Below, piece by piece: positions 1 through 64,000 of a stretch of 64,000 nucleotides of DNA; positions within the stretch are counted from its first letter, which is position 1, and every line of letters starts with the position of its first letter. The translations under genes were made by a program, and so were the position numbers. The DNA is taken from assembly GCF_030540775.2 (NCBI RefSeq), contig NZ_CP141266.1, positions 461,501 to 525,500 of the forward strand. The letters run 5' to 3'. Origin of the DNA: Flavivirga abyssicola (GTDB lineage Bacteria > Bacteroidota > Bacteroidia > Flavobacteriales > Flavobacteriaceae). The notes beneath the pieces are model-generated. The model worked only from the letters and a program-made list of their open reading frames with translations. It had not been told where the DNA came from and ran no database searches.

Positions 1-542
1 AAAAGGCTTTGTGTATTGGCATCAATAAAATTACCACCTTCAATCTTTCGAACTACACCTTCAATTGGTGTTTTTGAAACTAGCTTTCCATTGGCATCTA
101 ATTCATATAATTGATAATCATTACCTCCTGCAAAAATTTGAACTTTACCATCATTCTTTATCACTGCTACTTCAGAAAATCGCACTTTATGTTTTGGTTG
201 AAACTTCCATAATAACTTGCCTATACTATTATAACAAGAAATATATCCGTTAGCATGTGCTGTTATTAATTCATCATTACCATCACCATTAATATCTGAA
301 GCTTCTATTTCAAATAATACCGCTGGTTCATCTGTTTTTTTGTGCCATAATTCCTTGCCTTCAATTGTGTGGCTTGATAAGCTACCATCTAACTCTCCCA
401 AAAACAATATGCTTTCACCATTAACTTCAGCGATAACAGAATGTCTTATTGCATTTCCTTTTGTAGAAAAATTTTGAGCTAAACCTATTTGAACTAAAAA
501 GGAGGTAAGTAATAATATTATAGTTTGTTTTATTTTATTCAT
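1..542 (-). CDS. FG-GAP/PQQ-like beta-propeller secreted protein (3' end missing)
   Basis: The 5' part of a minus-strand gene that runs off the left edge; about 180 codons are visible, starting at the ATG at 542-540. The N-terminus is a signal peptide (MNKIKQTIILLLTSFLVQ, then a likely cleavage after IGLAQ). Propeller-type repeats follow, including the FG-GAP-like calcium-loop motif SDINGDGNDELITAHANGY and the phrase GKLLWKF. The two GH150-like proteins at 19837-22662 and 22672-25488 carry almost the same phrases (DINGDGIDEIVTANADGY, GDLLWKF), so all three share the N-terminal propeller. The catalytic part, if any, lies outside the window. It could be a third GH150 paralogue or a propeller-only binding protein; this cannot be decided here. 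Confidence 0.8.
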   Translation of the reverse strand, partial: MNKIKQTIILLLTSFLVQIGLAQNFSTKGNAIRHSVIAEVNGESILFLGELDGSLSSHTIEGKELWHKKTDEPAVLFEIEASDINGDGNDELITAHANGYISCYNSIGKLLWKFQPKHKVRFSEVAVIKNDGKVQIFAGGNDYQLYELDANGKLVSKTPIEGVVRKIEGGNFIDANTQSL

Positions 543-1058
543 AATTATTAGAATTTCGCTTTTTAGACTCTAAAAAAGAAAAAAGGCTTAATCTAAAAAA
601 ATAAAGAATTTCGGTTTTTGACCTTTTGGGTCAAAAACCGAAATTCTGTTATTTAGATTCCCGTTTACACGAGAATAACAACTTCAACGGAAACCCCGAG
701 GCAGAACCTCGAGGAATTATTTTCGATTAAATTAAGCCTACACTTTAATTTCTATTATTTCTAGAATTAAAACTTACAAATCATTAAAACTAAATCTTTA
801 ATTTTTCTATTCATTTTTAAACAGATTGTAGTATTAATTTAATTTCATCTCTCCAAAATGAGGACAATCTTCCTTAAATCACGAGTCAACTTCAACGATG
901 TTGCGACTTCCGAGCATTAGAACGTTATTCACTGATTATCTGATAGTTAGTTAAAATATTTTTTAGATACATTTTATTTACTCTAGAATACATTTAACAA
1001 TTTATATATCTCCAATTTTATATAATCAATAAAAATTTAACAATTAAACTAAGAAATT
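543..1058. other. Gene-free divergent intergenic region upstream of the GH82 gene
   Basis: This 516-base AT-rich region separates the minus-strand propeller gene (start 542) from the plus-strand GH82 gene (start 1059), so it should hold both promoters. Its left part is a dispersed repeat (605-735). I found no convincing Bacteroidota promoter consensus (TTG then TAnnTTTG) at the expected distance, and no RNA gene. Confidence 0.6.
605..735. repeat. Dispersed intergenic REP-like repeat, copy 1
   Basis: It starts with a perfect 19-bp stem (AGAATTTCGGTTTTTGACC at 605-623, its reverse complement at 629-647, loop TTTTG). Then come ATTTAGATTCCCGT, a GAGAATAACAACTTC block, CAACGGAAACC and a small hairpin CGAGG-CAGAA-CCTCG. 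The same order of blocks recurs at 25740-25855 and in part at 27105-27262 and 27690-27780. It sits between divergent genes, so it is not a simple terminator. Confidence 0.75.
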
Positions 1059-2648: not shown

Positions 2649-2671
2649 GTATTATTTATTGTTGGTATGAT

Positions 2672-2813
2672 AAAAAAGAGGGGGGCTAAAAAGTGCCATT
2701 CTGAATGAAATGAAGAATCTCAATAAATAATAATTCATTGATTTTTAAATAAATAAGATTTTTCGCTTTGCTCTGAATGACAAAACAAATTACTTTTTAG
2801 CCCCCTCTTTTTA
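2672..2813. terminator. Long inverted-repeat element between convergent genes, probable bidirectional terminator
   Basis: The left arm AAAAAGAGGGGGGCTAAAAAGT-type sequence (2673-2694) is matched by its reverse complement at 2792-2813, with one extra G in the left arm. Between the arms lies a second imperfect inverted repeat (TGCCATTCTGAATGAAATGA at 2694 against TTTCGCTTTGCTCTGAATGA near 2761). It sits between the stops of GH82 (+) and a sulfatase (-). This fits a terminator built from an inserted repeat element. Confidence 0.6.
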
Positions 2814-2851
2814 ATGAGACTTTTAAACGATATATAGATTTAAAATAATTT

Positions 2852-4300
2852 TTAATGCTTTGCATCTTCAAAGTAAGCCTCTAATTTTTCTATAATTTCT
2901 GGGTGTTGAGATGCTAAGTTTGTTGATTCTGCTTTATCGTTCTCTAAATCGTAAAGCTCATAAAACCATTCATCAGATTTAATAGATGTTATTTTAAAAA
3001 GTTTCCATTTGCCACTCCGAACGACTTCATATTTAGGTTTCTTGCTATACTGCCATTCCCAATATAAATAATCATGTTTTTCCTGTTTTTTTGTGTCTCC
3101 CAAAATTGTGGGAAGCAAGCTTAAGCCATCTATGTCCTTTGGAGTTTTTACACCTGCTAAATCACAAATTGTAGGTAATACATCCCAAAAGGCACTGGGG
3201 TGATTTGATACAGAACCTGATTTTACTTTACCTTTCCAATGCACTATAAAAGGAATTCGTATGCCTCCTTCATATAAATCTCTTTTATGCCCTCTTAATC
3301 CTCCTGAGCTATCAAAAAATGACATATCCTGACCGCCTTCCCCAGATGGTCCATTATCACTTGCAAACATGATTATTGTATTTTCTTCGAGATTCAATTC
3401 TTTTAATACCTCCAAAATACGCCCAATATTACTATCCATTTTGGTTATCATCGCTGCATAGGTTAGATTGGGTTCTTTTTGAGCACAATATCCATCAACA
3501 TATTGACTTCCGTAGCCTTCTCCCTTTTTAGCTCCCCCTCCTACTTCTTTTGGGGTTTCTGGCCAATTAAACCCTCTATACATTTTTTTTGCTTCTTCTT
3601 GTATAGTCAATTCTGCATGAGGAATGGCAAAAGGTAAATACAGAAAAAAGGGATGCTCTTTATTTTCTCTTATAAATTGAAGTGCTTCTTTTGCAAACTC
3701 ATCATGGCTGTATGTCCCTTTACCTTCTATATAATGTCCTTTTTCATCGCGTATCCCAATATTTTCCGTATATTTTACCTTGGTATGATTACGCCACAAA
3801 TACTCTGGGTAATAGAAATGCGCAAACCCTTGATTATCAAAACCAAAATAATGATCAAAACCTTGTTGGTTAGGACTATTCTCTGAAGTTGCTCCTTTGG
3901 ATAAGCCCCATTTTCCGATAATTCCAGTTTTATACCCTCTGGGTTTTAATAGCTCGGCAATGGTCACATCATCGGGGTCAAGCAATTGCCCGTTTCGTGT
4001 TACAGAAGCATTTCCCATATGTTTGCCCGTCATTAAAGCACATCTGGATGGAGAACAAACCGTTTGCCCTGAATAATGGTCAGTAAATCTTAACCCTCCT
4101 TTCGCCAATTCATCTATTATGGGTGTTTTAATTTTTGTTTGTCCATAAATGCCAACATCTCCGTATCCTAAATCGTCTGCTAAGATGTAAATAATATTCG
4201 GCTTTTTATTTTTATGAAGTGAATCTGCCTTCGGTGTATTTTTATGCTTTGAGCAGCTCAAAATTGTAATAAACACAAATAAAACATAGGTCTTTGGCAT
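2852..4300 (-). CDS. S1 family sulfatase, lipoprotein
   Basis: A formylglycine-dependent sulfatase that removes sulfate esters from sugars, probably at the periplasmic face. I start it at the ATG at 4300; the longer frame to 4339 begins with GTG and puts 13 residues before the signal peptide. From 4300 the N-terminus MPKTYVLFVFITILSCSK is a lipoprotein signal with the lipobox ending at Cys. The metal-binding ADDLGYGDVGIYG block and the maturation motif CSPSR (Cys about residue 82) with the downstream LMTGKHMGN are intact. A GKWGL motif and HDEF/ASDNGPS blocks follow. It is the last gene of the left minus-strand block, 77 bases after the esterase-GH42 gene. CSPSR with NGPSGEGG resembles arylsulfatase A-type subfamilies; the exact S1 subfamily and the sulfate position cannot be read. 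Confidence 0.9.
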   Translation of the reverse strand: MPKTYVLFVFITILSCSKHKNTPKADSLHKNKKPNIIYILADDLGYGDVGIYGQTKIKTPIIDELAKGGLRFTDHYSGQTVCSPSRCALMTGKHMGNASVTRNGQLLDPDDVTIAELLKPRGYKTGIIGKWGLSKGATSENSPNQQGFDHYFGFDNQGFAHFYYPEYLWRNHTKVKYTENIGIRDEKGHYIEGKGTYSHDEFAKEALQFIRENKEHPFFLYLPFAIPHAELTIQEEAKKMYRGFNWPETPKEVGGGAKKGEGYGSQYVDGYCAQKEPNLTYAAMITKMDSNIGRILEVLKELNLEENTIIMFASDNGPSGEGGQDMSFFDSSGGLRGHKRDLYEGGIRIPFIVHWKGKVKSGSVSNHPSAFWDVLPTICDLAGVKTPKDIDGLSLLPTILGDTKKQEKHDYLYWEWQYSKKPKYEVVRSGKWKLFKITSIKSDEWFYELYDLENDKAESTNLASQHPEIIEKLEAYFEDAKH

Positions 4301-4377
4301 CTTTAATTCTGTTTGTTTTGTTAGACCAAAATATGACACTTAGCATGACACTTAGTTTAATTTGGAATTGTTAAATT

Positions 4378-7300
4378 TTAATTTTTTGAGATAACTTCTA
4401 CAAAAAAAACATCATTTGGCTTCAAGGTGGGTTTATTATTAACCGGAATACCTTTTATTAAATCTTTACAGATAATCTCATCACTTCCATTTAAAGAAAT
4501 GGATAAAGTAGCATCTGATTTTCCGACATTGACAACAGATAATACGTTATTTCCAAATTTATTCTTCACTACTTTCCAAATACAACCTTTTGGTCCTATT
4601 TTGTTTTCTTCAGAAACTGAAACCTCTGGTAAGAGTTTATTACTTTTTAAAATAGAAAGCGCTTTTTCTTTAACTTCTAAAACTGAATCTAAATTAATTA
4701 AAGTGCCTTTTCCCTTTGATAATTTTTGAATGGCCTGTCCATATTCATTTTTCAATATACTTTCATCATCTATGATAATAGTACCCCCTTTATTTAAATA
4801 AGATTGGAGTGCATTCAATTCATCTATAGTTACATAAGGTGTTTTATGAATTAATATAACATCCCATGCTTCATTATTTTGTTTATTGATAATATCTTTG
4901 GTTACAAAACCTAAGGATGTCCCTTCAAAGTGTAATGCTTCGTATAGTTCAAACAGATCATCCATGTATGCCTTCTTATTTATGGCTGATGTTTTAGAAT
5001 AAAATATACGTAACGGTTTTCTTTGACGCTGCATGGCCATAATTTCTTCAGAATATGAATTCAAATCAATTAGGGTGGTTGCAACTTCATTAGTCACTCT
5101 TGGTTGTTGGTTATTTGACCCCGCATATCCTTTATCATTTATAGCCTTTTTGGAAATAGAACCATCAGCTTCTCTTGGCCAATACCAAATTTGACTTGCT
5201 GTCATGCCATAACTATGCGCCAGCCAAAATGAAGCTCTAGCAAACTTAGGGTCTAGATATAAATTTCTTGATCTAACCGTTGATAGATAGTGTAACTCCG
5301 AATTAAAATTGATTTTATTTGGGCTTACCGATTTCATAAAATCGTAACCCATACATAATTCTCGCCACTCAAAAGCGTAATGTGCTTCCCATTCATGTGG
5401 TTTTCCCCATATTCTTGTGTGGTCTGCTCCAGAATCGTTACCAACAATACCACTTAAATCTGTTAAAGCTTCTAAATCTATTCCGTGAACTCTTTTATTC
5501 TCTGTCCAAAGACTTGGCATAATTTTTAAATGCACTTTAGCTTCGGGGTCATGTTTAGTAATTTCAGATTTTAAGAACGTGTACCAATCTGTAACTCGAT
5601 CCATATTAAATGAAGCCCAGTCGTACCATATTGGTGTCCCCTTGTATGTAGTACTTAACGGGATATCTATAAACACATCGTTAAAACTTGAATAGTTTGT
5701 TTTCCAAACATCATTTAATGCATTTATATCTTTATGTTTATTTTCTAACCATGATTTAAATTTCTGAATTGTAAACTGAGAAACACCTCCTGATGCCCAA
5801 GGTAATTTTTCTTTATTTGGAAATTTATATGTGTAAAAGTGTGGCTCGTTACATAACATATACCCCAATTTGGTATACCTTTTTCCAGCCATTTCTGGAA
5901 CAATATAACTTAATAGTTTTTTTTGAAGTTCCTTTGCACCAGGATTGTCAATATCATAGGCTGTATATGTATCTTCACGCATACTAAAATTTGGTCCATA
6001 GCTATCTTTTGCCCATTTCGGAATGTTCTTATGATTCATAAAAATAAAACCTAGAGAGCCATCAGGTTTTGTTTCCAAATTATCACGAATTCGTTTGCTT
6101 ATAGCTCCATCTTCACTTACGACCTGTGTTGGGGTTATAAAAAATCCATCTAAATCACCATGGTATTCTGTTAGTTCTTTCGTATTAGGTTTCCAAGTAT
6201 AATCTGTTATAAAAATCGGACGATTATTAAAGGTTAGCTGGTCTTTATCTAGAGTAATTTTTGTCCAATCTACTTTTGGACTTGGTTTTCTAAATTCTTT
6301 TTTTTCAATTAATAAATTTAGAGTTTTGGTTGCATCATCTAACATTAGAATAACATCTTCTCTTTCAAAATTTGGAAGATTATTAGCCATTTTAACAGCA
6401 TCTTTTTTGAATGACTGCACTTTTTTAAACAACTTCAAATTTGCCTCAATATTTTTTTCATCCCAATCAGCAAATTTTAAAAAGATCTCAGCAGTTCTAA
6501 CCGTGGTTTTTTCCTTTAAAACGTCAATATTCTTTTTTTCTGCCTTTTTAATAAGGTTTTTTAAGGTTTTAATCTTCTCTTTTGCTTGACTTTTTAAGGA
6601 TGTTTTTTTTGTTGGTCTTACAAATGATGTATTTTGCTTTTTTGTATTGTTAAGAAGTCCTTTTCCAAAAGCAATACCCAAACGTTTTTGTCCTTCTGCA
6701 TTATAATGAACATTATCAGGATGCTTTGGAAAATCCTCCCATGATTTGTCTGTAGAGGTTTTTATAAGTATAGATTTTGAATCCTCTTGTGCAAACTGTA
6801 CCATATTATCCCGTACCATTTTTGCACCACCTTTAACACCATATCTAGAATTTATTTGCCCAAAAACGAATGGCATTTCTGGAACATTAAATTCAGATCT
6901 GTAAGCAGTAACCAAATTTTTTAAATTCTGCTTGTAACCTTTCGCAGCAACTTCTAAGGTGGCATCATTTTCACCTTGCATCCATGCTAAACCAATGATT
7001 TTATATGTTTTGTTTTGGCTTTTTAATGCTTCTAAGTTTGTCTTTATATCAGAAATATGGAGTTCATATAATTTTAAGCTTTGCTTAAACTTCGCTTTTT
7101 CAACAGCTTTTGCTTTTGCTTGCGACCAATTTGGATTCCATGCACCATAAAGCGCTGTACCACCTTGTGAGCGTTTTATAAGTAAAAACTCTTGATTTGG
7201 ATTAGACTCTGCTAATGTTAGCCCCAATAATAGCTCTGGACCAAAACGTTTTGTGAAATTGTATTTCTCACTAGGCTTATTATTGTAATAAGATAAAGGG

Positions 7301-7542
7301 TTTGCAGGTTTTCCATTAAAGCTTAGAAGCACTCTATGGGATATTTTTTCAATTCGTTGTTTAACGTCTTCACTTAATTCATCATAGTTCCCTGCTCCTG
7401 CCATATTAGACTGACCTGCTAAAAGCACAACTTGGACAGGTTCAACCTGAGGTTCTAAAATTGTTGTTGCTTGAAGCTTATAAGAGCTATTGAGCAACAC
7501 TAAAGTCGTTAATAATATAAAAATACACCCTTTTTTCAACAT
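4378..7542 (-). CDS. Fusion of SGNH/SASA carbohydrate esterase and GH42-like beta-galactosidase
   Basis: A secreted 1054-residue bifunctional protein. The signal peptide covers about residues 1-26. Residues 36-300 form a SASA/sialate O-acetylesterase-type SGNH hydrolase: the nucleophile is S45 in LLAGQSNMAG, block WMQGEND is at 188-194, and the D276/H279 pair is in HPDNVHYN. A lysine-rich, probably helical linker covers about 310-420. Residues 425-800 form a TIM barrel with the GH42-type acid/base CNEPHFY (E566) and nucleophile NSELHY (E749). A trimerisation-like domain (about 845-960) and a small beta domain complete it. A GH-A neighbour such as GH167 is an alternative to GH42. The next gene (GH110) ends 7 bases upstream, so the two are co-transcribed. 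The likely role is to remove an acyl group and then a terminal beta-galactose; an acylated substrate is inference. Confidence 0.82.
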   Translation of the reverse strand: MLKKGCIFILLTTLVLLNSSYKLQATTILEPQVEPVQVVLLAGQSNMAGAGNYDELSEDVKQRIEKISHRVLLSFNGKPANPLSYYNNKPSEKYNFTKRFGPELLLGLTLAESNPNQEFLLIKRSQGGTALYGAWNPNWSQAKAKAVEKAKFKQSLKLYELHISDIKTNLEALKSQNKTYKIIGLAWMQGENDATLEVAAKGYKQNLKNLVTAYRSEFNVPEMPFVFGQINSRYGVKGGAKMVRDNMVQFAQEDSKSILIKTSTDKSWEDFPKHPDNVHYNAEGQKRLGIAFGKGLLNNTKKQNTSFVRPTKKTSLKSQAKEKIKTLKNLIKKAEKKNIDVLKEKTTVRTAEIFLKFADWDEKNIEANLKLFKKVQSFKKDAVKMANNLPNFEREDVILMLDDATKTLNLLIEKKEFRKPSPKVDWTKITLDKDQLTFNNRPIFITDYTWKPNTKELTEYHGDLDGFFITPTQVVSEDGAISKRIRDNLETKPDGSLGFIFMNHKNIPKWAKDSYGPNFSMREDTYTAYDIDNPGAKELQKKLLSYIVPEMAGKRYTKLGYMLCNEPHFYTYKFPNKEKLPWASGGVSQFTIQKFKSWLENKHKDINALNDVWKTNYSSFNDVFIDIPLSTTYKGTPIWYDWASFNMDRVTDWYTFLKSEITKHDPEAKVHLKIMPSLWTENKRVHGIDLEALTDLSGIVGNDSGADHTRIWGKPHEWEAHYAFEWRELCMGYDFMKSVSPNKINFNSELHYLSTVRSRNLYLDPKFARASFWLAHSYGMTASQIWYWPREADGSISKKAINDKGYAGSNNQQPRVTNEVATTLIDLNSYSEEIMAMQRQRKPLRIFYSKTSAINKKAYMDDLFELYEALHFEGTSLGFVTKDIINKQNNEAWDVILIHKTPYVTIDELNALQSYLNKGGTIIIDDESILKNEYGQAIQKLSKGKGTLINLDSVLEVKEKALSILKSNKLLPEVSVSEENKIGPKGCIWKVVKNKFGNNVLSVVNVGKSDATLSISLNGSDEIICKDLIKGIPVNNKPTLKPNDVFFVEVISKN

Positions 7543-7549
7543 AAATCCA

Positions 7550-9361
7550 CTATTTAAACTTAATTCCCTTATTCCGTTTGATTTTTAAGCTTTTTTTAGA
7601 TGACTCATCTGCTTTAACAAATTTCTTTATATCACCTTTATAAACATTGTTTTCAATAACTACATCTTTACAGTTTTTAAAATCAAACATATGTGCATTT
7701 GGAAACTTTGATTTAAAAGCATCAACTTGTTTTATTGTATTACCTTTAAAAACGAGGCCTTCTAATCGGTCTGCCCAAACAATCCGATTTTGAAACGTTT
7801 CGATAATGTTGTCTTCAAAAATAATATTGCGGTCGTAAATTTCTGTTTTATCAAAACCTTTTCCCAATCTAGGAGACACCCATAAAACAGCATGTTCTGC
7901 ACCACCATGTGCACAATTAATAAAATGATTATTTCGAATTATAACCTCATTTACAGCTCCAGATTCATACCAAAAAAATGTTTCCCCTCTCAAACCTATG
8001 GATGACATTTCGGAAGATAAGATATTATTTTCTATTACAATTTTCTTAGGTGTTTTTATCATTAAATTTCGCGCTCGATGCTTGGTAATACGGCAATTAC
8101 GAATAGTATATGTAGGATTCCATGTTTTATTTTCTAAAATATCATCTTTTGATAGGGTCTTAGGTAATTTGTTTTTAAATGTTAATTCGGTATACTTTTC
8201 GTTGATAAACTTAGCTTTTACAACTTCATTGACTTCTCCTCGTTCTGGACTTGGTTTTTGAATAAACCAGACCTCATCACCAACATCTGCAAACTTAAAC
8301 CCTAGCTGTTCGAAATGCTGAAGCTTAATTCTAACTGTATATTCGTCCAAAATAGCGTCTACTGTCACATAGGTACCATGAACATTAGTACCATCGTCTA
8401 GCATACCCTCAAATCGGCAATTTTCCACCAGAATATCGCCTTTACAATTGGCAAAATGTGTAGCATCTGCCGTACTTGAAATATATCTATTTGAACCTTC
8501 TCTAGTATAGGTACCCGAGTTTAAAATCTTTATATCCTCTGTACGTTCAAATAAAAAAGCCATACCTAAGGCATGATGCACAATTATGTTATCGTAAGTT
8601 ACATTTTTGCTTTCTTGAGTTTGAAATGCAGGTGCGTATCTATTAAATTCATTCCCGCCTTTTGCTGCTATTACAGATCCTTTTGGTGGATAATGACGCA
8701 TAGACTGATGGATTCTATAAATTCCATTTTCAAGTTTTTCAACTTTTTTCGGCGTTAAGTGCTGCCCGTATGCTCCATAGAATGTCGATTTGGTTTTAGG
8801 GTCGAAACAATGTGCATGACCAAGTTCACGAAACGAGAACCCATCAATGTTGGGAAAGGATATTTCGTTATCCTTAAAAGACCACGAATGTCCATCGATT
8901 ATAGGTTTAACATCAAACCATTTTTCTTCTTTATTAACACTTAAAACTTCGGCTTCAAAAGTGAAGGGAATATCCCAATCTATAACCACATTTTTCACAT
9001 CAATTTTATTGCAATTTTCAAATTGAAATGGTGCCATACGGCCATGAAAAATAAACTCTGATCCATTACCTTCAACTTCTACGGAATTAAAGTTTTCAAA
9101 TCTGAATCCTACATATTTATAGCCATTACCATGATTGGTAATAAATGAGAATTTGCTAAATGCATATTCAGGTAGAAATTTATATATCCCTTTTTCAAAA
9201 ACAAGTTTGATATCCTTATCCTTTGCATTTTGTATGGCTTCTCTAACTCTAGTAGTAATATCGTCTTTACTGTGCTTTATATGTATAATCTCAGTAGCAT
9301 TTACTTCTACGACTGTACAAAATAGGGTTAAGAAAAAGAGAATTAAAAGTTTACTATTCAT
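7550..9361 (-). CDS. GH110 alpha-1,3-galactosidase
   Basis: An exo-enzyme that releases alpha-1,3-linked galactose, the linkage joining the repeat units of carrageenans. It is a 603-residue right-handed beta-helix with a signal peptide (MNSKLLILFFLTLFCTVVEVNA). The family signature is clear: STADATHFANCKG around 296-308 and FEGMLDDGTNVHGTY around 317-331. D299, D322 and D323 have the same spacing as the catalytic aspartates D321, D344 and D345 that I recall from a marine Pseudoalteromonas GH110. Repeated beta-helix phrases such as VIENN and IRNNHF support the fold. It lies 7 bases upstream of the esterase-GH42 gene and 15 bases after a sulfatase. Together they suggest sequential alpha- and beta-galactose removal from desulfated ends. 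Confidence 0.88.
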   Translation of the reverse strand: MNSKLLILFFLTLFCTVVEVNATEIIHIKHSKDDITTRVREAIQNAKDKDIKLVFEKGIYKFLPEYAFSKFSFITNHGNGYKYVGFRFENFNSVEVEGNGSEFIFHGRMAPFQFENCNKIDVKNVVIDWDIPFTFEAEVLSVNKEEKWFDVKPIIDGHSWSFKDNEISFPNIDGFSFRELGHAHCFDPKTKSTFYGAYGQHLTPKKVEKLENGIYRIHQSMRHYPPKGSVIAAKGGNEFNRYAPAFQTQESKNVTYDNIIVHHALGMAFLFERTEDIKILNSGTYTREGSNRYISSTADATHFANCKGDILVENCRFEGMLDDGTNVHGTYVTVDAILDEYTVRIKLQHFEQLGFKFADVGDEVWFIQKPSPERGEVNEVVKAKFINEKYTELTFKNKLPKTLSKDDILENKTWNPTYTIRNCRITKHRARNLMIKTPKKIVIENNILSSEMSSIGLRGETFFWYESGAVNEVIIRNNHFINCAHGGAEHAVLWVSPRLGKGFDKTEIYDRNIIFEDNIIETFQNRIVWADRLEGLVFKGNTIKQVDAFKSKFPNAHMFDFKNCKDVVIENNVYKGDIKKFVKADESSKKSLKIKRNKGIKFK

Positions 9362-9376: not shown

Positions 9377-10840
9377 TTATAAATTAACTCCTGATCCTTG
9401 TAAGGACGCATCGTGCTCCCACATAATCATCCAAGGATCTGAGGTTCTTTTTTGAAATGTTTTTAATTTGGCCTTCATTGACTCTAGTAGCTCAGCATAA
9501 TTTTCATCTTCAGCTAAATTATTGGTTTCCCATGGATCATTTTCTAAATTGAACAGTTCAAACTCAGGTCTAAATAGGTAATCTTTAACCTTACGGGGGC
9601 CAAATTTTTCTATATCATTTCTATAAATAGACTGCCAGGTTGAAGCTGCCCATAAATCTGAGGCAAACGGGTATTCCAAACGCCATGCTACGTTCCAAAT
9701 TAGTTTATAGTTTTTATCAATAGCCACACGCATGGGGTAATACATGGTAATTTCATGAAACGTATGCGATGCATAAATATTATCCCATCCTTTAGGGTTT
9801 TCATTTTCTAATATATTTCTAAATGATTTCCCATGAAATTCCTTGACTTCATAGTTTATTTTCGCAAAGTCTAAAATGGTTGGCGTCAAATCTACCCATG
9901 AAATTTTTGCAGAATTAGTAATTCCCTTTTTATTGGAAGCTGGATTTTTAATAATGCAAGGTAATTTTATTCCTGGTTCGTAAACAGTTGTTTTTGCTCC
10001 AGGAAAAGCCATACCGTTGTCTGAAATATAAATGACAACAGTCGTTTCTAATTTACCAGCATCTTTTAAATGTGCCATAAGCCTACCAAATCCTTGGTCA
10101 ATTCTTGAAATACTTTGATAGTATTGTGCAATCTCTTCTCGAGATTGCTTCGTATCAGGCAAAAATTCAGGAACCAAAACTTCGTCTGGACTGTAAGTTA
10201 CCTGCTTTACGCCTTGATATCCTTCTTTTTTATTTCCAAAGCTATTAGGTATATCCCACTCCTCTGGTGTGAATGGATGTCCTCTATGTGGGTCATCGGT
10301 ACAAAAATATAAGAAGAATGGCTTTTCTGAATTTAGAACACCTTTTGATGCATCGGCCATTTCAACCGTATTTCTAGGGTCAGCCTCTAGTACTTCATCA
10401 AACTGATAAACGGTTTCTGGTGCTACATGATATTTACCAATTCTCGCTGTAATATACCCTGCCTGGGTTAACCTATTGGACAAAGATTTTATATTATCAT
10501 ATGTACTAAAATGGTGGTAATCGTGTACATGACCGTATGAGCCTGTTGCATGACCATATAAACCGGAAAGAATTACAGACCTACTAGCTGCGCAGCTAGC
10601 ACTGGTGCAATAAGCATTTGTAAATTTAACGCCTTCAGATGCCAATTTATCTAAATTTGGTGTTTTAATAATTGGGTTACCATAACAACCCAAAGCATCT
10701 AAACCATGATCATCTGAAACAAATAAAATTATGTTTGGCCTCGAAATTTTGGATGCTTCTGGTTTAGCTTCTTTTGAGTTCGAACAAGCAAACATAACAA
10801 ATAATAACAATAAATACGCGACCCTTAATAACTTATTCAT
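9377..10840 (-). CDS. S1 family sulfatase (CAASR type), lipoprotein
   Basis: A sulfatase of 487 residues. The N-terminus MNKLLRVAYLLLLFVMFACS is a lipoprotein signal with Cys at about 19. Metal residues D43/D44 are in FVSDDHGLDALGCYG, and the formylglycine motif is C83-A-A-S-R followed by SVILSGLYGHATG. A second metal site is in YISDNGMAF. Alanine at position 3 of the motif instead of proline is typical of the heparan N-sulfatase-like side of the S1 family, but the subfamily is not certain. It lies 15 bases upstream of the GH110 gene, which suggests that it desulfates the substrate of that enzyme. A periplasmic location is inferred because the residues after the lipid Cys (SNSKEAK) lack an acidic surface-export signal. 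Confidence 0.9.
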   Translation of the reverse strand: MNKLLRVAYLLLLFVMFACSNSKEAKPEASKISRPNIILFVSDDHGLDALGCYGNPIIKTPNLDKLASEGVKFTNAYCTSASCAASRSVILSGLYGHATGSYGHVHDYHHFSTYDNIKSLSNRLTQAGYITARIGKYHVAPETVYQFDEVLEADPRNTVEMADASKGVLNSEKPFFLYFCTDDPHRGHPFTPEEWDIPNSFGNKKEGYQGVKQVTYSPDEVLVPEFLPDTKQSREEIAQYYQSISRIDQGFGRLMAHLKDAGKLETTVVIYISDNGMAFPGAKTTVYEPGIKLPCIIKNPASNKKGITNSAKISWVDLTPTILDFAKINYEVKEFHGKSFRNILENENPKGWDNIYASHTFHEITMYYPMRVAIDKNYKLIWNVAWRLEYPFASDLWAASTWQSIYRNDIEKFGPRKVKDYLFRPEFELFNLENDPWETNNLAEDENYAELLESMKAKLKTFQKRTSDPWMIMWEHDASLQGSGVNL

Positions 10841-52822: not shown

Positions 52823-52847
52823 CTTTAAAAAAAATAAAATGATTCGT

Positions 52848-55800
52848 TTAATACTTTGCCAATTTTCCTGTTTTAAATAAAGACTTATCAGCATTGGTTA
52901 CCTTATACAAATATATTCCTTGATTTAGAGACGATATAGAATATTTATCTGTTGACAGTCCTTTATATTCTTTTACTAATTGACCTTGTAATGAATAAAT
53001 TTTTAATTCAATCTTACCATGTAACCCTTTAATATTTATAGTCTTTTTTGCTGGGTTTGGGTATACTCTAATGTCGTCTTTTGGGTGTGAGTTATCTCCA
53101 ACACTTAAATTAGGGTTAGGATCTACGGCTACATACCAACCACTTCCTCTTGTTGAAGCATAATATTTTCCTGGTATAAAATAATCTATGGCAATATCAT
53201 TAACCCTATCAGATTGTCCGTTACCTTTGTTTATCTTAATCCAAGTAGCACCTGCATCTTTAGATAAATAAGTTCCTGCATTTTTAAAGTTTATAGTAGC
53301 ATTGGCTAAGGTAGAAACCAAAATGGTTCTTGTATCATATTTTGCGACTTCTACACGATTTGTCCATGGATGATCAAAAACTTTAGTCCAGGATGCCATA
53401 CCGTCATTACTTACCCAAAGGCCACCATCGTTAGCACTTACATTTTTATAACCAGCAGTAATATATACTTTACCACTACCATCAAAGTGAATATCGTTAA
53501 TTCCAGATGATTTGGATATTGATGTTGTTGAAGCTACTTCTGACCAAGTTTCGCCTTTATCAATAGATTTATATAACCCTCCATTATTACCAATTACTGT
53601 TGCATATAAAATACTGGTAGAACTGGGGTCAAAAACCAATCTAGACACATCTAATGAAGCCGGTAAGCCTGTATTAGGTTGTGTCCAAGTGACACCGCCA
53701 TCTGTAGATTTATGTATGCCCCATCCGGTAACACTATCTCCTACCCATTCTAAATCTAAAGTTGATCTAGGTACACAGAAATACATTGTATCAGGGGTAT
53801 CTTTATCAATCATAAAACTCAATTGATGTACTGATTTATCGCCTCCGCCAGCTGGTTCTGGCCAAGGTTGTGGCAACGGTGTCCCGATACTGCTCCATGT
53901 TTCTCCGCTATCTGTAGATTTCAGCACTTGTCCTTGTTTTGCCTGCCTGAAAAAAGTAGCATACCAAATTGTAGGGTCGTTAGGATGAACCACTACGGAG
54001 CTTACAGAATGCTCCGAATCTACCAATTCTACAACCCGAGCACCTTGAGCTCCAGCACGAACATTGTCACCTTCATCATTTGTAATCCACAAACTGTTTT
54101 CTCCCGATGGACAAAACACCGCATTTGGAATACTCATGGTTTGATAAAATCCATGCCCTGGTACATTGCTATTTCCTGCACCTACCCAGCTTTCAGAATT
54201 TGCTGTGGTTTCTTCATCGTCTATATCAATCCAGTTTGCACCTTTATCATAAGACACAAATCCAATTTTTGCCATTTGGGTATATAATACGGTACCATCT
54301 GCATTAAACTTTATAAAGTTTGACCCTTTTCGTTCGTACACATCTCTATTTAACCAATCACTCTTATATTTAAACGACACATTAGTACCCATAGGATTGC
54401 TTCTTAATGCCCAATATGCATTATCTGTACCATTATTCCAGTTTTTACCATTTCGTAATGTCACAAACCAATTTGTTCCGCCATTTGTAGTACGCCATAT
54501 TTGTCCCGGCATAAAATTGTTTTTTGAAGCATTGGAGTAATTATTGATAAGATAAATATTATTAACATCGTTAGGGTCAACCGTTATCATATTGAAACGC
54601 TGAGTGATACTTGTTGGTAGGTTTGGATATGTTGTTTCTGCTTCAGCATTTGAACTTAACCCAAAATAATGCGCTATAGTTGTATAATAGCTTTTTTTAA
54701 TTTGTGCGTTGTTTTTAAAGTAATCTAGATTAATAGCTAGATTGCCACTAATATCTGTCCAGGTTTCACCTTTATCGGTACTTTTAAATATGCCTCCTGC
54801 ATCATCTTCAACAGTGGTTCCGTTAGCTTTCCATGTAATATTACTTAAAGCATAAAGCGTTATGGCATTTGTATTTTTATCATGATGCATGGCCATAGAA
54901 CGAATCATATCATGATCGATACCATTAGACTTTAACGTCCATGTTGCTCCTCCATCTGTACTTTTATAAAATCCATAATTACTACCTGCATATACGATGT
55001 TACTCTCAACAGGATCAACAAGTATGGTTTCAAACTCTGCATTTGCATTTATACCTGTATTAGACAAACTCCAAGTATTACCCTTGTCTGTACTTTTCCA
55101 AATTCTTCCATTGGCATTAGGGTCTATATGAGTCCCTTTAGGAGCAGACTGCGGATATAGTATACGGCTGTAATCCCGCATTCTACCAGCTGACAAAAAC
55201 CAGATATTATCATCAGACGGATCTACAGCAACACATGATAGGAAATTGTTTCCAATAACACCACTAGTTGATAATTGTGGGGTCCATGTTTTTCCTTTGT
55301 CTGTTGTTACATATAACTCGCCTTTACGTTTTCCTGTAGAAAAACCATAATTTGGGTTTTGTCTGGAAAAATCCAGTACATACATCTCTACGGCTCCACG
55401 TAACCCAGATTTATGATTAGGTCCGTCTTCATTTAAAATAGCTTCATAGGTAAATCCGCGGTCTGTTGATCTATAACTGTTTCCCATGTTAGGGCTCGTA
55501 TAAACAACATCAGGATCTGTTGGATGTGTATACAATGAATTATTATTACCACTCATCCCAGGACCAAATTGCACCCATTTAATAGATGCATCTGAAGCTA
55601 CATCGGTGGTTTTTATTAAATCAAAAAAATCTGGCACGACTTTCTCTATTGAAAAATCATCAAAATAAAATTCTCCCGTACCAGTACTGGATGGACGCAT
55701 AGAAAATAATACATACCCCGATGTATCATCAATATTTGATGTAAAATCGAATGAAACTTCTTGCCATGATGTATTAGATAGCGAGAAATTATATTGCATG

Positions 55801-56271: not shown

Positions 56272-57942
56272 TTAATGCCCTCCTTTAGGGTGGCTATCAT
56301 TTGTGTACCTTAAAACTTTTGGTGCTTCGGTGCCCCTAGCCATGGTTATTTTCTCTTTCCACGCCTTTTTTAAAGTATTTAATACCCTCTCATAATCTTT
56401 ATTATCTACAAGATTCTTTAGCTCATTCGGATCTTCCTTTAAGTTATATAATTCTTCATATACAGGTTCTTCTCCTTGTAAAGGCGACTCGATATAATCT
56501 CTATAAACAGCTATAGCAGGATCGTGAACTGCGTATAACATTTTCGTCACATCAATACCAAGGGTTTTAGCTGCTTTAATATTTTTTGATGCAGGAAACG
56601 TTGTATTTTTATAGTAACGTATATATTTCCATTCTTTATCTTGAACCGCTTCGCATCTAGGGTTACCAAACTGTGTAGACCATAGGTTTTCTGTAAAAAG
56701 ATAGTCTCTAACATTTTCATCCCCTCCTTCTACTAAATGAGATATATTTTGCCCTTGGAAACTTGAAGGCTGATCAATCCCAGCATAGGCCAACATTGTA
56801 GGCGCAACATCTATACTTTGCACCAAAGCATCAGATGTAACGCCTCTATATTTTCGTTTTACTTTAGGATTCATAATAATCATAGGGACATGAGTTGTTT
56901 TCTCGTAGCATAATGACTTTCCTCCAAGACCTTGTTCTCCCATAAACAATCCATGATCTGAAGTAAATATGATAATGGTATTCTTATCTATTTTTAAATC
57001 TTTTAATTTCTTTCTTAAATTTCCTACTAAACGATCAATGCCTGTCATAGCCTGAAGTTGACGCGTGTAACGTTCTCTAAAGCTTTCTGGAGTATCTACA
57101 TAATTATAAATATTTTGTCTATCTTCTACTCGCAGCAAATCTGCTGGTAATTTAGGCATTTTAATATCGGCTTTCGCTATATAGTTTTCCGGCAATGGCA
57201 TCTCTAAATCCCGATACAGGGTTTTGTAAATATCCTCATCTGTTTCCCGCATTTCCATAGATCTTGTACCTGCTCCATGTGGTAAATTAAAATTAATGGA
57301 CAACATGAATGGTTTATCTTCTGGACGTTCATCTAAAAAGTGAACAGCACCTTTTAATCGTCTTTCATTATTATCGATAAAATCGTTAACTCCTTCATTT
57401 ATTACTTCAACTTGGGTGCTTGCTTTGGCATCTTTAAAAATCTCGTGTCTTTCCTTTGGATAAAAACCAATATGGCCATGACCAGCGTACCAATAGTCAA
57501 AACTTTTTTCCATAACGCCACTAATATATCCTCCATTACCAATTGGTGCATGGTTTTTACCAATCCAACCCGTATAATAACCCGCTTTTCTCATAACCAT
57601 GGGATACGATTGTTCCCATGCTTCATCCGAAACACTTGTGCCCGAATTAAAATTCACACCATGTTTACGTTCGTATTGACTTAACAAAATAGAAATTCTA
57701 CTGGGCGTACAAATGGCACTGGTAATATGTGCATTTGTAAAACGGATCCCATCTGTCGCCAATCTATCTATATTTGGTGTTTGAACAATAGGATTTCCTT
57801 CACACCCCAACATACCAAAAGATTGGTCGTCGGTAAGAATAAAAATAATATTAGGACGTTCTTGCGAATGCAATTTTAAAATCGACAACCCAAAAATAAC
57901 GATTGCCAAAGACGCAAATGCAGCTGCCTTAATTTTTTTCAT
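56272..57942 (-). CDS. S1 family sulfatase (CTPSR type), secreted
   Basis: A sulfatase of 556 residues, the longest of the ten. The signal peptide is MKKIKAAAFASLAIVIFGLS, with cleavage after ILKLHSQ. The metal block is IIFILTDDQSFGMLGCEG. The maturation motif is C78-T-P-S-R, followed by ISILLSQYERKHGVNF. GWIGKNHAPIGNGG is a variant of the usual GKWH block: Lys-Asn-His. FTSDHGLFMGEQGLGGKS completes the metal site. It starts the minus-strand block that ends with GH3, opposite the GH29 gene across a 445-base divergent region. The variant blocks suggest a subfamily with an unusual substrate; I cannot name it safely. Confidence 0.88.
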   Translation of the reverse strand: MKKIKAAAFASLAIVIFGLSILKLHSQERPNIIFILTDDQSFGMLGCEGNPIVQTPNIDRLATDGIRFTNAHITSAICTPSRISILLSQYERKHGVNFNSGTSVSDEAWEQSYPMVMRKAGYYTGWIGKNHAPIGNGGYISGVMEKSFDYWYAGHGHIGFYPKERHEIFKDAKASTQVEVINEGVNDFIDNNERRLKGAVHFLDERPEDKPFMLSINFNLPHGAGTRSMEMRETDEDIYKTLYRDLEMPLPENYIAKADIKMPKLPADLLRVEDRQNIYNYVDTPESFRERYTRQLQAMTGIDRLVGNLRKKLKDLKIDKNTIIIFTSDHGLFMGEQGLGGKSLCYEKTTHVPMIIMNPKVKRKYRGVTSDALVQSIDVAPTMLAYAGIDQPSSFQGQNISHLVEGGDENVRDYLFTENLWSTQFGNPRCEAVQDKEWKYIRYYKNTTFPASKNIKAAKTLGIDVTKMLYAVHDPAIAVYRDYIESPLQGEEPVYEELYNLKEDPNELKNLVDNKDYERVLNTLKKAWKEKITMARGTEAPKVLRYTNDSHPKGGH

Positions 57943-59970: not shown

Positions 59971-60008
59971 AAAGGCGTATCCTAAAAAGATACGCCTTTG
60001 TTATTTTT
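59971..60008 (+). terminator. Rho-independent terminator of GH29
   Basis: AAAGGCGTATC (59971-59981) and GATACGCCTTT (59989-59999) form a perfect 11-bp stem with loop CTAAAAA, followed by TGTTATTTTT. It lies 54 bases after the GH29 stop. Confidence 0.92.
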
Positions 60009-60340: not shown

Positions 60341-60476
60341 AGATATGAAGCGGAGCTTACGAGGAGCAGGCAGGCAGGCAGGAAACCTCATCATGATGAG
60401 ATATCTCATCACTCATGCTTCGTTCTATCGACATGACGAATACCTATATTTCAAATAATTAACTTGGTTCTTTTGA
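60341..60476. repeat. Dispersed repeat, family 2 (long copy with CAGG tandem)
   Basis: GAAGCGGAGCTTACGAGGAG and AAACCTCATCATGATGAG correspond to the copy at 18931. The end (CCTATATTTCAAATAATTAA) matches the copy at 27561. Four tandem CAGG units (60367-60382) are inserted after GAGGAG and are absent from the copy at 18931. Confidence 0.72.
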
Positions 60477-60586
60477 ATATTATTTACATCGAATTGACGT
60501 TAATTTATTGAAACTTATAACTCACATTAAGATTATATTGGTCACTAATATCAACTAGATGTTAAAGTTGAAAGCAAATGATAAAG

Positions 60587-60622
60587 AAAGCCCCCAATTA
60601 AACTAGTTTAATTGGGGGCTTT
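60587..60622. terminator. 36-bp perfect palindromic terminator of the SusE-like gene
   Basis: AAAGCCCCCAATTAAA and its reverse complement flank the central CTAG. It lies 28 bases past the stop at 60650. With pyrimidine-rich sequence on both sides it may work in both directions, insulating the susCD operon from GH29. Confidence 0.85.
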
Positions 60623-60649
60623 TAAATTATTAAAAGCTGAGCCTTAAGC

Positions 60650-62605
60650 TTAAGGTCTTACTTCTTTTTCGGCTATTATGAAATCGTCATAATAAACTCT
60701 ACTTACTCCGGCTGGTACAGGTTGGTATCTTACAATAAAATTACCTGTTGTACTTTGTACAAATTCAGCAATCTGAATATCTTCCCAAACCTCTCTAGCT
60801 TCTCCAACATAATCATCATTTGGAAGTTGGTCACTTGCTATATATGGTTTAGCAAAAGTGGTAGTATGTGCTGTAAAAATGTATCTTTTTGCCGTCCAAA
60901 CATATGTTTTTCCTGCTTCAAATGGATAGGTTCCTGAAGATCTTAAATCAGGCTTATTCCCGTCTGGAGCTTCTACAAAAGCTACAGCACCAGTATCTGG
61001 ATTGTTAGCAGGCACTGCTGGATTAGGAAATGTTATGGAAGATGTACCGTTCCCTGAATTATTATTCCATTTAGAGGAATCATCAAAACTACCATCTCCG
61101 TTTAAAATATCTCCATTATCCATAATTACCGGAACTCCAGTAAACGCTCCGATAGCTCCACCTCCGATAGCTCGTATATCTCCAGAACCATCATGTCCAA
61201 CTGTTATAACATCTGGGCGATAAATAGGATCTGTCAAATTAATATTTAAAACCTTATTATCGGTATTATCTATACTAACAGACGCAATAGAAAAACTTAT
61301 TCCATTAACTAATACTTCAAAACCTTGGGTCGTATCACCTGTAAACGTATCAGGGTCAAAGTCAACATCAAAAGGCACTTGAATCGTTTCATCTCTTAAC
61401 TCTATAATCGTACCTGTTTGTATTACTGGAGTTACAATATAGTTCGCAACTGCTACATTTGAAAAGGCTTGTAGAGGCCTTTCATCTAATGATTGTAAAC
61501 CACCGTTCCCATCATATGATATAGTAACTACGTCGGTTTCTTGGATATCAGTCTCTAGGGTTACGATTAAAGTGTTACCAGCAGTATTACTTTTTATCAC
61601 AGAGTTTATTGTAGCTGGGCTTCCATTCACATTAACTGTAAAAGATGCAACTGGGCTACTACCTATATCTGCAACTATCGAGCTTAATGGAACCTGTATA
61701 GTACCGTCTGGCAATTCTTCTACAGATCCTGTTTGCGTAAAAGATTCATCAAGTGCTGTAACATTAAATACCACAGGTATATCAAAAATTTCACTATCCG
61801 CTTTAATGGTTTCTGTCCTATCTCTATTAGAAGTCAATTTACCTCTAAAACTTCCTATCTGCTTATTAAAAGTAATTGTATCGATTTTTGTAGTTCCATT
61901 AAAAATGTTTATTTCATCATCTTCATTATCCTCTATAGTATGAACTCTCCATCTGGTTGATGTTGGTCTTGCATTATTAGTTGTTTCACTTAAATCTTCA
62001 AAAATTAATTTATCATTAAATTTTAAATCAATAGAACTTAAGTTTCTATAGTCTATAGGGTTTCCATCAATGTCTCTTATTGCCATATCTGGTACAATAG
62101 TATCATAAACATCTATGGTTAAGGTATATTCATAAACCCATTTGCCATTAATAAGTTCTGTGCGTGTCGTATCAATAATTGTACTCCCAGCAACAGGATC
62201 AAATCCAGTATTTAAAATGAATTCAGTATACTCATCAAATTCATTATAAATTGTAATTTTTGCTACTGAATCTGCCTCTTTAAAAAGCACAAGTGCAGTT
62301 CGATCATTTGTAATAGTATCACCAGGATTTATGATAAATTCATCAAGGTTAGTTGCATTACCAGGAATTGGCCCTTTTAAGAAAAAAGCTGTTTTAGGAA
62401 TACGCCATTCGTGGTATGTTGCACCTGAAGATAAATCTAAAAATCCAGAATAATCGTTAACATCTACTTCCTTTGCACCTAGACCTAAGCTACTCGTAAA
62501 CGCAACATCCACAAACTCATTTGGTGGAACAAATTCATCATCGTCACAACTGCTTACTATAAAAAGCAATAATATTACTTTAAAAAGATTTTTTATATTT
62601 TTCAT
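60650..62605 (-). CDS. SusE/F-like surface lipoprotein with tandem Ig-like and CBM-like domains
   Basis: A 651-residue lipoprotein encoded directly after SusD (26-base gap). The signal MKNIKNLFKVILLLFIVSSC is followed by DDDEF, an acidic stretch like the surface-export signals of Bacteroidota, so it is probably exposed on the outer face. An N-terminal domain has the phrases SGFLDLSSGATYHEWRIP and DRTALVLFKE. Two tandem beta-sandwich repeats follow at about 290-395 and 400-490 (GTIQVPLSSI against ETIQVPFDVD; TISYDGNGGLQSL against TVGHDGSGDIRAI). A C-terminal CBM-like jelly-roll starts about 495 (NGDGSFDDSSKWNNNSGNG, ending YYDDFIIAEKE). It likely binds galactan for the SusC-SusD transporter. 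It does not match SusE or SusF closely. Confidence 0.85.
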   Translation of the reverse strand: MKNIKNLFKVILLLFIVSSCDDDEFVPPNEFVDVAFTSSLGLGAKEVDVNDYSGFLDLSSGATYHEWRIPKTAFFLKGPIPGNATNLDEFIINPGDTITNDRTALVLFKEADSVAKITIYNEFDEYTEFILNTGFDPVAGSTIIDTTRTELINGKWVYEYTLTIDVYDTIVPDMAIRDIDGNPIDYRNLSSIDLKFNDKLIFEDLSETTNNARPTSTRWRVHTIEDNEDDEINIFNGTTKIDTITFNKQIGSFRGKLTSNRDRTETIKADSEIFDIPVVFNVTALDESFTQTGSVEELPDGTIQVPLSSIVADIGSSPVASFTVNVNGSPATINSVIKSNTAGNTLIVTLETDIQETDVVTISYDGNGGLQSLDERPLQAFSNVAVANYIVTPVIQTGTIIELRDETIQVPFDVDFDPDTFTGDTTQGFEVLVNGISFSIASVSIDNTDNKVLNINLTDPIYRPDVITVGHDGSGDIRAIGGGAIGAFTGVPVIMDNGDILNGDGSFDDSSKWNNNSGNGTSSITFPNPAVPANNPDTGAVAFVEAPDGNKPDLRSSGTYPFEAGKTYVWTAKRYIFTAHTTTFAKPYIASDQLPNDDYVGEAREVWEDIQIAEFVQSTTGNFIVRYQPVPAGVSRVYYDDFIIAEKEVRP

Positions 62606-62631
62606 TTTTCTTGTTTTATTTTGTTTAAAGA

Positions 62632-64000
62632 TTATTGATCTACAATATCATTCCAGTTTAAATTGGCATCTATTTCACTTTGTGGTATTGGTAAATAATC
62701 ATGGAAATTTGAATTATAATTATTGGCCGCTACAACTTTGTCCTGTATCTCTATTTGCCCCGAAAAGAACTTTACACCCTGCGCATTTGGGTCAAAAGTT
62801 TGAGGTAGTTCTCCTGTACGTGTTAAAAAACACTTAAATCGTACACCGTGTTTTCCATTTGTGTTTTTAGGATAATGCCAATAGTCATATGGAACTGATG
62901 CCATCTCACTTAATACATTTCCAAAAACACCCCATCTTCTTAAATCTGCAGCTCTGTCTCCTTCTAAAGATAATTCCAAAGGAATTTCTTTAAACCTTAA
63001 ATGTTCCATTAAATTACTTACAGTTACGACATCACTTCCTGATAAATCTAAATTTATATCATCTACATAAGTGGTCTCTGCGTTATTAAATTCTGCACCG
63101 GGATCCGTTGCTTTTCCTAAAAGCATAATATGAGAACGTTTTCTTACTCTGTTTATATAACGTAATGCTTCAGATAAGTCTCCTTTCTCTAACATACATT
63201 CGGCATAACTTAAATAGATATCAGCTAACCTAATAACTATTATATTTATATCTGATCTGCCATCAAACTCTGTACTTTCATCTTCTCCAGCACCGCCACC
63301 TATAGTATTCCAATGAGTATATTTTTTAAATGTAGCTGTTAAACCTCTTGAATAAGGACGTACACCAGGCACGTTACCAAATTCGCCACCTGGTACACCG
63401 TAATATAAATGATCTGGATCATCAACCTGTCCCATAAGGTTTCCCATTCTTAAGCTATAAAGTCGTGTTGCTGGAACTGTCCCATCTATTTCTCCCTGTG
63501 CAGTATAAATAGTACGCTCTACATTATTTATAGGATCTGCAGGATCAACCTTCTCTTCTCTATACAATAGTATTAAACGACTACTAGGCATAATTCCACC
63601 ACTACCAATAATGTGTGTTACGCCTTGAGACACAGCTTCTTCACCATCTGCCAATAAATTTACCCCAGTAGTAACGTTTACTTCGAATATAGATTCAGAA
63701 TTAAATTCGTCTATACCTGTAAAACATTTCGTTAAATCATCTACCAATTCATAATTATAATTATCTATAACACTTTTAAAATGTAATTCTGCATTTGTAA
63801 AATCATTTTCGTATAAATAACTTTTTCCAAGTAATGCATCACATGCACCAGCTGTAATTCGCCCAAGATTATTATTTCCTACATCTAACCATTCAGAATA
63901 TGTTTTTGGTAGATTTTCCAACCCAAATTGAAGATCTGCTCTGTAAAAATCTTTTATTTTTTGAGATGTTGAAAAGGCTTTCTGGAAATCATCAAAAGTT
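62632..64000 (-). CDS. susD: SusD/RagB-like glycan-binding lipoprotein (5' end missing)
   Basis: The C-terminal 456 residues of a SusD-type outer-membrane lipoprotein. The frame stays open to the right edge (the visible N-terminus includes FQKAFSTSQKIKDFYRADLQ), so the signal peptide and first part are outside. The TTG at 63921 is internal and not the start. TPR-like helices (ACDALLGKSYLYENDFTNAE) and the RagB/SusD C-terminal pattern (ADIYLSYAECMLEKGDLSEA, INRVRKRS, LSLEGDRAADLRRWG, YLPIPQSEIDAN) are clear. It should form a lid on a SusC TonB-dependent transporter that probably lies just outside the window. It is the first visible gene of the operon with the SusE-like gene. Confidence 0.95.
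   Translation of the reverse strand, partial: TFDDFQKAFSTSQKIKDFYRADLQFGLENLPKTYSEWLDVGNNNLGRITAGACDALLGKSYLYENDFTNAELHFKSVIDNYNYELVDDLTKCFTGIDEFNSESIFEVNVTTGVNLLADGEEAVSQGVTHIIGSGGIMPSSRLILLYREEKVDPADPINNVERTIYTAQGEIDGTVPATRLYSLRMGNLMGQVDDPDHLYYGVPGGEFGNVPGVRPYSRGLTATFKKYTHWNTIGGGAGEDESTEFDGRSDINIIVIRLADIYLSYAECMLEKGDLSEALRYINRVRKRSHIMLLGKATDPGAEFNNAETTYVDDINLDLSGSDVVTVSNLMEHLRFKEIPLELSLEGDRAADLRRWGVFGNVLSEMASVPYDYWHYPKNTNGKHGVRFKCFLTRTGELPQTFDPNAQGVKFFSGQIEIQDKVVAANNYNSNFHDYLPIPQSEIDANLNWNDIVDQ

Follow-up and report, generated by a model that had tools for sequence, protein, structure and literature searches.

A probable lambda-carrageenan part of a carrageenan super-locus in Flavivirga abyssicola, and an esterase that travels with lambda-carrageenases

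Our analysis concerns a 64,000-nucleotide stretch of the Flavivirga abyssicola chromosome, referred to here as the window (C1:461501-525500 of a genome that forms one contig of 4,684,200 bases). Sequence comparisons make it very probable that the window mainly forms the lambda portion of a roughly 200-kb carrageenan super-locus, taken as a whole explanation that includes the degradation cascade, two additions to it and a separate role for a glycoside hydrolase (GH) of family GH82; the lambda assignment of the window is itself well supported. Because counterparts of a solved cascade lie in the window or its flanks, the pathway is of a known kind with variant features. The novel part is an esterase together with a variant sulfatase and GH167 set, and this esterase travels with lambda-carrageenases, where it has no known job.

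A complete lambda-carrageenan cascade was published in 2025, comprising GH150A/B, S1_8B, GH110A, S1_15B, GH110B, S1_8C, GH2, S1_15A and S1_8A (PMC12549532), and a lambda gene set had been proposed in 2018, according to the available part of PMC6262041; an earlier sequence-only reading of the window, which held complete lambda pathways to be little described, was thus out of date. Comparing 380-564 kb of the chromosome with selected proteins of the Pseudoalteromonas carrageenovora plasmid NZ_CP027525.1, we obtained reciprocal best hits for plasmid GH150A (the window gene at 22672, 48%), GH150B RS20335 (C1:459388, 51%), GH110A (7550, 53%), S1_8C (C1:535567, 47%) and S1_15 (C1:422202, 47 and 46% to two plasmid copies), as well as for the S1_8A, S1_8B and GH2 genes listed below. 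A second S1_15-like sulfatase at C1:444866 (46%) is not a reciprocal best hit, and a flank GH110 at C1:430590 is 33% identical to GH110B. The window contains or overlaps counterparts of GH150A, GH150B, GH110A, S1_8A, S1_8B and GH2. It does not hold the whole pathway: the S1_8C and S1_15 counterparts are found in the flanks, together with most of GH150B. The plasmid S1_8B and S1_15 labels follow from the position of the catalytic cysteine (92, 94, 84). The window genes that carry the argument are the following.

1..542, minus strand: start region (N-terminal propeller) of a GH150B-type lambda-carrageenase; whole gene C1:459388-462042, 884 amino acids
1059..2648, plus strand: GH82 iota-carrageenase-like protein with a type IX secretion system (T9SS) tail; 1h80 E 8e-28, Por_Secre_tail
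4378..7542, minus strand: SASA (SGNH) esterase fused to GH167; SASA residues 36-294, GH167 residues 314-1052
7550..9361, minus strand: GH110A-type exo-alpha-galactosidase, predicted to accept 6-sulfated galactose; 9beh E 1.4e-213
9377..10840, minus strand: S1 sulfatase of SGSH-like S1_8 type; 4mhx (SGSH) E 6.5e-87, S1_8A 2.1e-43
12516..14045, minus strand: S1_8B counterpart (putative alpha-galactose 2-O-sulfatase); 45% to RS20350, reciprocal best hit
14315..15829, minus strand: S1_30-type sulfatase; 9ihk Sulfatase_S1_30A E 9e-139
19837..22662, minus strand: GH150 lambda-carrageenase; three CGLA Pfam domains
22672..25488, minus strand: GH150 lambda-carrageenase, modelled; three CGLA Pfam domains
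27904..32037, minus strand: hybrid two-component sensor/regulator, from the domain scan; kept in 21 of 71 GH150 loci (at least 40%)
32075..33544, minus strand: S1_8A counterpart; 36% to RS20500, reciprocal best hit
48783..51242, minus strand: GH2, lambda beta-galactosidase counterpart; 53% to RS20355, reciprocal best hit

In keeping with GH110A, the window GH110 retains the equivalents of the catalytic Asp (D324) and of R460; in place of T498 it has Ser. Since the Arg of GH110A (R460) makes room for a 6-sulfate, its conservation predicts that the window enzyme accepts 6-sulfated galactose; the flank GH110 has Pro at this position. By analogy with the biochemically solved cascade, GH150 would cut the beta-1,4 bonds of lambda-carrageenan into oligosaccharides, S1_8B would remove the 2-sulfate from the terminal alpha-galactose, and GH110A would then take off that 6-sulfated galactose. 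S1_8-type sulfatases and GH2 would next take the beta-linked galactose, after which the cycle would repeat. Judging from conservation alone, the SGSH-like sulfatase at 9377-10840 may be a further 2-O-sulfatase, and the GH167, which lies outside the kappa-type clade, and the SASA esterase may act on lambda-type oligosaccharides. GH82 and the left flank would serve iota/kappa carrageenan.

Carrageenan-type genes lie on both sides of the window, and the super-locus spans roughly C1:342,000-544,000; in C1:320001-340000, open reading frames (ORFs) of at least 150 amino acids gave no match to our carrageenan reference set. The wider locus is not lambda-only: its left flank holds three strong GH127 matches (C1:359353, 367173 and 409884, roughly 50-102 kb away from the window), GH16, a kappa-type GH167 (C1:352492-354885), the flank GH110 already mentioned, an aldehyde dehydrogenase and proteins of MR_MLE type. 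It also has another GH82-like ORF, with 39% identity to the window GH82. A weak fourth GH127 match lies at C1:2498830. The absence of a recognised anhydrogalactosidase, noted earlier, thus holds among the 32 ORFs scanned in the window but not for the flank. To the right are a SusC-like ORF (C1:526060), the S1_8C counterpart and a GH117 (4u6d E 3.8e-202). The locus combines GH150, GH110, S1_8, GH2 and SusC/D, the set by which we recognised a lambda-carrageenan polysaccharide utilization locus (PUL). The GH82 inside the window and the GH127, GH16 and kappa-type GH167 genes to its left would also suit a general hybrid-carrageenan locus, with lambda as one of several targets rather than a lambda module. 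We regard this as rather unlikely, since the genes in 4378-25488 and at 48783 have their counterparts in the lambda cascade, and the lambda and kappa/iota cascades are reported to have no enzyme in common (PMC12549532). The earlier proposal of a lambda-type or hybrid target is well supported for lambda by the reciprocal best hits and the GH110 Arg, with the qualification that the surroundings would serve more than lambda.

The protein encoded at 4378-7542 had been described as GH42-like. A plain GH42 was ruled out by its SASA and GH167 matches; the SASA domain reaches a Pfam E value of 1.9e-31, and its sequence contains what we take to be SGNH motifs of the GQSN, QGE and DxxH type. The two parts are fused in this protein and form separate genes in the relatives seen; our genome also has a SASA copy standing by itself at C1:455296-456228. 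We surveyed 397 Flavobacteriaceae genomes, our own included, of which 14 have a GH150 hit, full-length in 13 and weak and partial in one (G246). SASA at 50% identity or more occurs in 13 of the 14, every one that has a full-length GH150, and in none of the 383 others, where the best match reaches 39%; we did not score the 30-39% matches of eight GH150-negative genomes as positive. In nine of the 13 genomes the gene shares a contig with GH150 and lies within 50 kb of it; the other four have the two on separate contigs. Across a phylum sample of 335 genomes, only our genome and G565 match SASA at E 1e-30, and G565, picked up by SASA, holds four GH150 genes, as against none in G043 and G389, where SASA matches at 37-39%. 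A tblastn search gave no SASA match on the P. carrageenovora plasmid, covered in full as four stretches, with Pseudoalteromonas chromosomes and strain U2A outside that search, nor in a 43-kb stretch of Flammeovirga kamogawensis; two other Flammeovirga genomes carry it elsewhere.

Commercial carrageenan is alkali-extracted. An ester so far unrecognised may be present on lambda-type galactan in its native form, and we tentatively propose, as something that could well be wrong, that this is an acyl ester lost on alkaline extraction and that a dedicated SASA esterase is standard in the Flavobacteriaceae lambda pathway beside a lambda-shifted GH167. We found no report of an ester on carrageenan or of an esterase in its pathway, judged by titles and the starts of abstracts and by the available text of PMC11748540, which is no proof of absence. 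The word esterase is missing from the main texts, as available, of PMC13168452, PMC6923384, PMC6262041 and PMC5698469, with PMC12549532 outside that search. Whether the accepted lambda-carrageenan structure misses an ester that bacteria remove becomes testable, as does the question of which S1_8 and GH167 enzymes in Bacteroidota take the place of the different ones employed by Pseudoalteromonas.

SASA acetylesterases act on a wider range of glycans. Their families include acetylesterases of various glycans according to the Pfam description, and a GH3 in the window lies near xylosidase models (below their cut-offs), so it is quite conceivable, if short of probable, that SASA acts on another acetylated red-algal polymer found with lambda-carrageenan and not on lambda-carrageenan itself. 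The tight tie to GH150 (13/14 against 0/383) and the fusion to GH167 argue against this, as does the lack of SASA at 50% or more in all eight GH150-negative genomes with a GH167 match (G001, G019, G119, G138, G145, G169, G213 and G320).

The GH167 part of the fusion matches 9whd (E 1.4e-252) and 6ptm (E 2e-230), and the catalytic Glu pair of GH167 is kept in 39 of 39 aligned rows. It is quite conceivable, if short of probable, that the window GH167 is simply a kappa/iota-pathway enzyme that releases beta-neocarrabiose: both catalytic Glu of the window protein are conserved, BovGH167 (6ptm) is a close match, and described GH167 enzymes release beta-neocarrabiose in the available text of PMC6923384. 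We lean away from it on the basis of a tree of 39 rows, 37 of them different, which leaves several branches open and contains three long rows. There the window GH167 falls in a 15-row clade (support 97/98), whose rows come from genomes that hold GH150 in 14 cases and from G019 in one, and outside the fully supported 7-row clade (100/100) of P. carrageenovora RS20090; our genome has another GH167 inside the RS20090 clade and a third copy at C1:49900. GH167 at 59% or more occurs in 9 of 14 GH150-positive genomes and one of the 383 others.

Human SGSH is the nearest match of the 9377 sulfatase, followed by S1_8A. At 66% or more it is present in all 14 GH150-positive and seven of the 383 other Flavobacteriaceae genomes; together with a GH167 clade, it tracks GH150. 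Fisher p values for SASA, GH167 and the 9377 sulfatase against GH150 are 1.7e-23, 3.2e-14 and 5.3e-21, with relatedness ignored. In these samples, at most four GH150, two GH167, six SASA and three 9377 candidates were scored per genome, which means that absences may be missed matches.

To describe GH150 neighbourhoods, the best 80 of 138 relatives were kept, giving 71 distinct loci, each taken with flanks of up to 10 kb; some stretches are short, making the counts lower bounds. With a best hit of at least 40%, GH110A and the 9377 sulfatase each occur in 28 loci, the sensor in 21, S1_30 in 17, S1_8B in 12, GH150B in six, S1_15 and S1_8A in four each, the P. carrageenovora-type GH2 in two and S1_8C in one. 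In the GH150 locus of Flavivirga rizhaonensis, the sensor, GH150, S1_8B, 9377 sulfatase and GH110A match our region at 89-96%, and four further genes do so at 45-79%; a thioredoxin-reductase-like ORF at C1:561277 shares 98% identity with its match in that species (L046).

Several observations weigh against the lambda assignment or the association of the additions with it. Among the 71 loci, SASA at 47% or more lies within 10 kb in 16 and GH167 at 47% or more in 12. Across 25 chosen genomes from these loci, Flavobacteriaceae included, SASA reaches at least 47% in 16 and 29-32% in three and is absent in six, so that at 47% it is missing in 9 of 25; some of the 25 apparently repeat family-sample genomes (same contig positions) and are not independent of them. 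The 9377 sulfatase is retained in seven GH150-negative genomes, and the GH167 in one, G019. The identity limits (50% for SASA, 59% for GH167, 66% for the 9377 sulfatase) were chosen after seeing gaps. Moreover, the plasmid S1_8A and S1_8C labels rest on chain length (514 and 651 against 513 and 652 on the plasmid), and their plasmid cysteines (80, 93) differ from the published fGly82 and C68.

The lambda-carrageenan PULs of Pseudoalteromonas distincta U2A and P. carrageenovora (PMC12549532 and the available part of PMC6262041) resemble our locus in GH150A and B, GH110A, S1_8A/B/C, S1_15 and GH2. Compared with that of P. carrageenovora, ours has in addition the SASA esterase, a GH167 outside the kappa-type clade, the SGSH-like S1_8 sulfatase at 9377, S1_30, more GH150 copies, SusC/D and the hybrid two-component sensor. 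The carrageenan regulon of Zobellia galactanivorans has three GH127 and kappa/iota genes, like our left flank (PMC5698469, available text). Unlike our genome, Z. galactanivorans lacks GH150 and is nonetheless said to grow on lambda-carrageenan (PMC6262041, available text); its GH129-like gene found no match here, in a search that had no positive control. As far as their description was available (PMC13168452), bovine Bacteroides carrageenan PULs hold GH150, GH82 and GH167 in one PUL with S1_8, S1_16 and S1_30, name GH110, have GH16_17 as keystone family and do not use the terms SASA or esterase in the main text. The joint presence of GH150, GH167, GH110, S1_8, S1_16 and S1_30 is consequently not new.

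The two 938-941-residue proteins that had been called GH150-like are GH150 enzymes: both contain all three CGLA Pfam domains, which rules out plain propeller proteins, with E values for the middle domain of 1.4e-193 (19837-22662) and 6.4e-202 (22672-25488). The absence of a GH150 hit for these proteins, which the sequence-only reading had named as refuting it, did not arise. The edge gene C1:459388-462042 also has the propeller, middle and C-terminal domains, although its propeller match is weaker and partial. The genome holds six GH150 matches, five of them in the super-locus; among the 15 genomes with a GH150 match, G237 also has six and the others one to four. The sixth, an ORF of about 1047 amino acids at C1:4239211 (L014), lies far from the super-locus, and in the 20-kb stretch around it the carrageenan reference set otherwise gives a single match, of 24%.

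AlphaFold2 models of GH150 with a conserved cleft have already been presented, with catalytic residues placed as a conserved patch (PMC12549532). Our AlphaFold2 models of the 22672-25488 protein have a predicted local distance difference test score (pLDDT) of 91.3 for the whole protein and of 91.4 for one restricted to residues 405-938. In Foldseek searches with the latter, trimmed model, GH98 structures make up 25 of the top 28 hits and 26 of all 50 listed (best cited 4d6i, E 4.4e-10; TMq at most 0.48, root-mean-square deviation about 10-14 Å), and the remainder are mostly GH13- and GH29-type barrels; beta-propellers dominate the list for the whole model, with a GH98 at rank 2. The modelled barrel thus appears most similar to GH98, which we call a resemblance. 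GH98 and GH150 are both inverting. Aligning GH150 by hhalign with a single, weak GH98-like protein encoded in this genome gave no sequence link, and we found no paper naming both families, GH98 going unmentioned in PMC12549532. Seven acids after residue 404 are invariant (D476, D511, E538, E603, D636, D758 and D931) in 34 of 34 sequences, GH150B included, and in 45 of 45 sequences; the six in the middle domain (D476 to D758), together with the GH98-like model, provide a shortlist of candidate catalytic residues.

In GH150-negative genomes with the 9377 sulfatase, a search for another lambda-carrageenase gave no convincing candidate; a 1120-1127-residue protein common to L129 and L132 has FG-GAP and UnbV repeats. 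A block of GH110, 9377-type sulfatase and other locus sulfatases occurs in four GH150-negative genomes and at a second site of the GH150-positive G388 (L126, L128, L129, L130 and L132). A family of 688- and 761-residue proteins (L102:2041-4107 and L123:14698-16983, 51% identical) has relatives in the GH150 loci L087 and L103; a Pfam scan of the L102 member, the only one scanned, gave no match.

Domain scans covered 32 of the 42 window ORFs of at least 100 amino acids, the other ten being smaller overlapping frames. Besides the genes above, the window contains the following.

2852..4339, minus strand: S1 sulfatase; Pfam, catalytic Cys
10912..12468, minus strand: S1 sulfatase, Flammeovirga GH150-locus counterpart; 63% to Fk 24655, reciprocal best hit
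15897..17321, minus strand: weak melibiase-like protein, family unsettled; Pfam E 1.8e-4, under the curated cut-off, one PDB match at E 0.005
17329..18870, minus strand: S1 sulfatase; nearest solved relatives 7stt, 9fo1 (S1_16) and 6ust
33547-36120 and 36108-37829, minus strand: two GH2; domain scan
37883..39856, minus strand: GH97; domain scan
45095: GH3, near xylosidase models, below their cut-offs
47323..48738, minus strand: S1 sulfatase; Pfam, catalytic Cys
51263..52894, minus strand: S1 sulfatase; Pfam, catalytic Cys
56272..57942, minus strand: S1 sulfatase; Pfam, catalytic Cys
58388: GH29; domain scan
60650..64000, minus strand: SWM-repeat protein and SusD, the latter running past the window edge

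The 32 ORFs also include a LacI regulator, an SSF symporter and an FAD oxidoreductase. The gene list of the sequence-only reading, a good catch of gene content joined to a sound substrate guess, was essentially right, its observation being partly confirmed and its interpretation partly supported. It overlooked the edge GH150 (1-542), the GH3, the GH29 and the SASA domain, and its alpha-galactosidase pair was not found, the only candidate besides GH97 being the weak melibiase-like ORF. The domain scan recovered its GH110 (7550-9361), GH97 (37883-39856) and three GH2 (33547, 36108 and 48783). Its GH82 matches the iota-carrageenase structures 1h80 and 3lmw (E 9e-28), while Pfam and NCBIfam gave no GH82 match for this ORF. 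Its ten S1 sulfatases correspond to ten Sulfatase ORFs, all ten with the catalytic Cys by alignment; the idea that some lack this residue came from a narrow motif search that missed several.

Two PF12831 FAD-dependent oxidoreductases, 37% identical, lie at 39890-42172 of the window and at C1:405556-407478, and in 8 of the 71 loci a relative of the latter lies no more than 10 kb from GH150. At 52848-56147, the window encodes a 1099-residue T9SS-exported protein with CBM_4_9 and a sortilin/BNR-type propeller, possibly an unrecognised surface enzyme or binder. Finally, in C1:446422-452652 (L010) a 1397-residue protein with PKD, Big_5 and weakly cytochrome-peroxidase-like regions adjoins an esterase that carries a fused 3-keto-disaccharide hydrolase domain.

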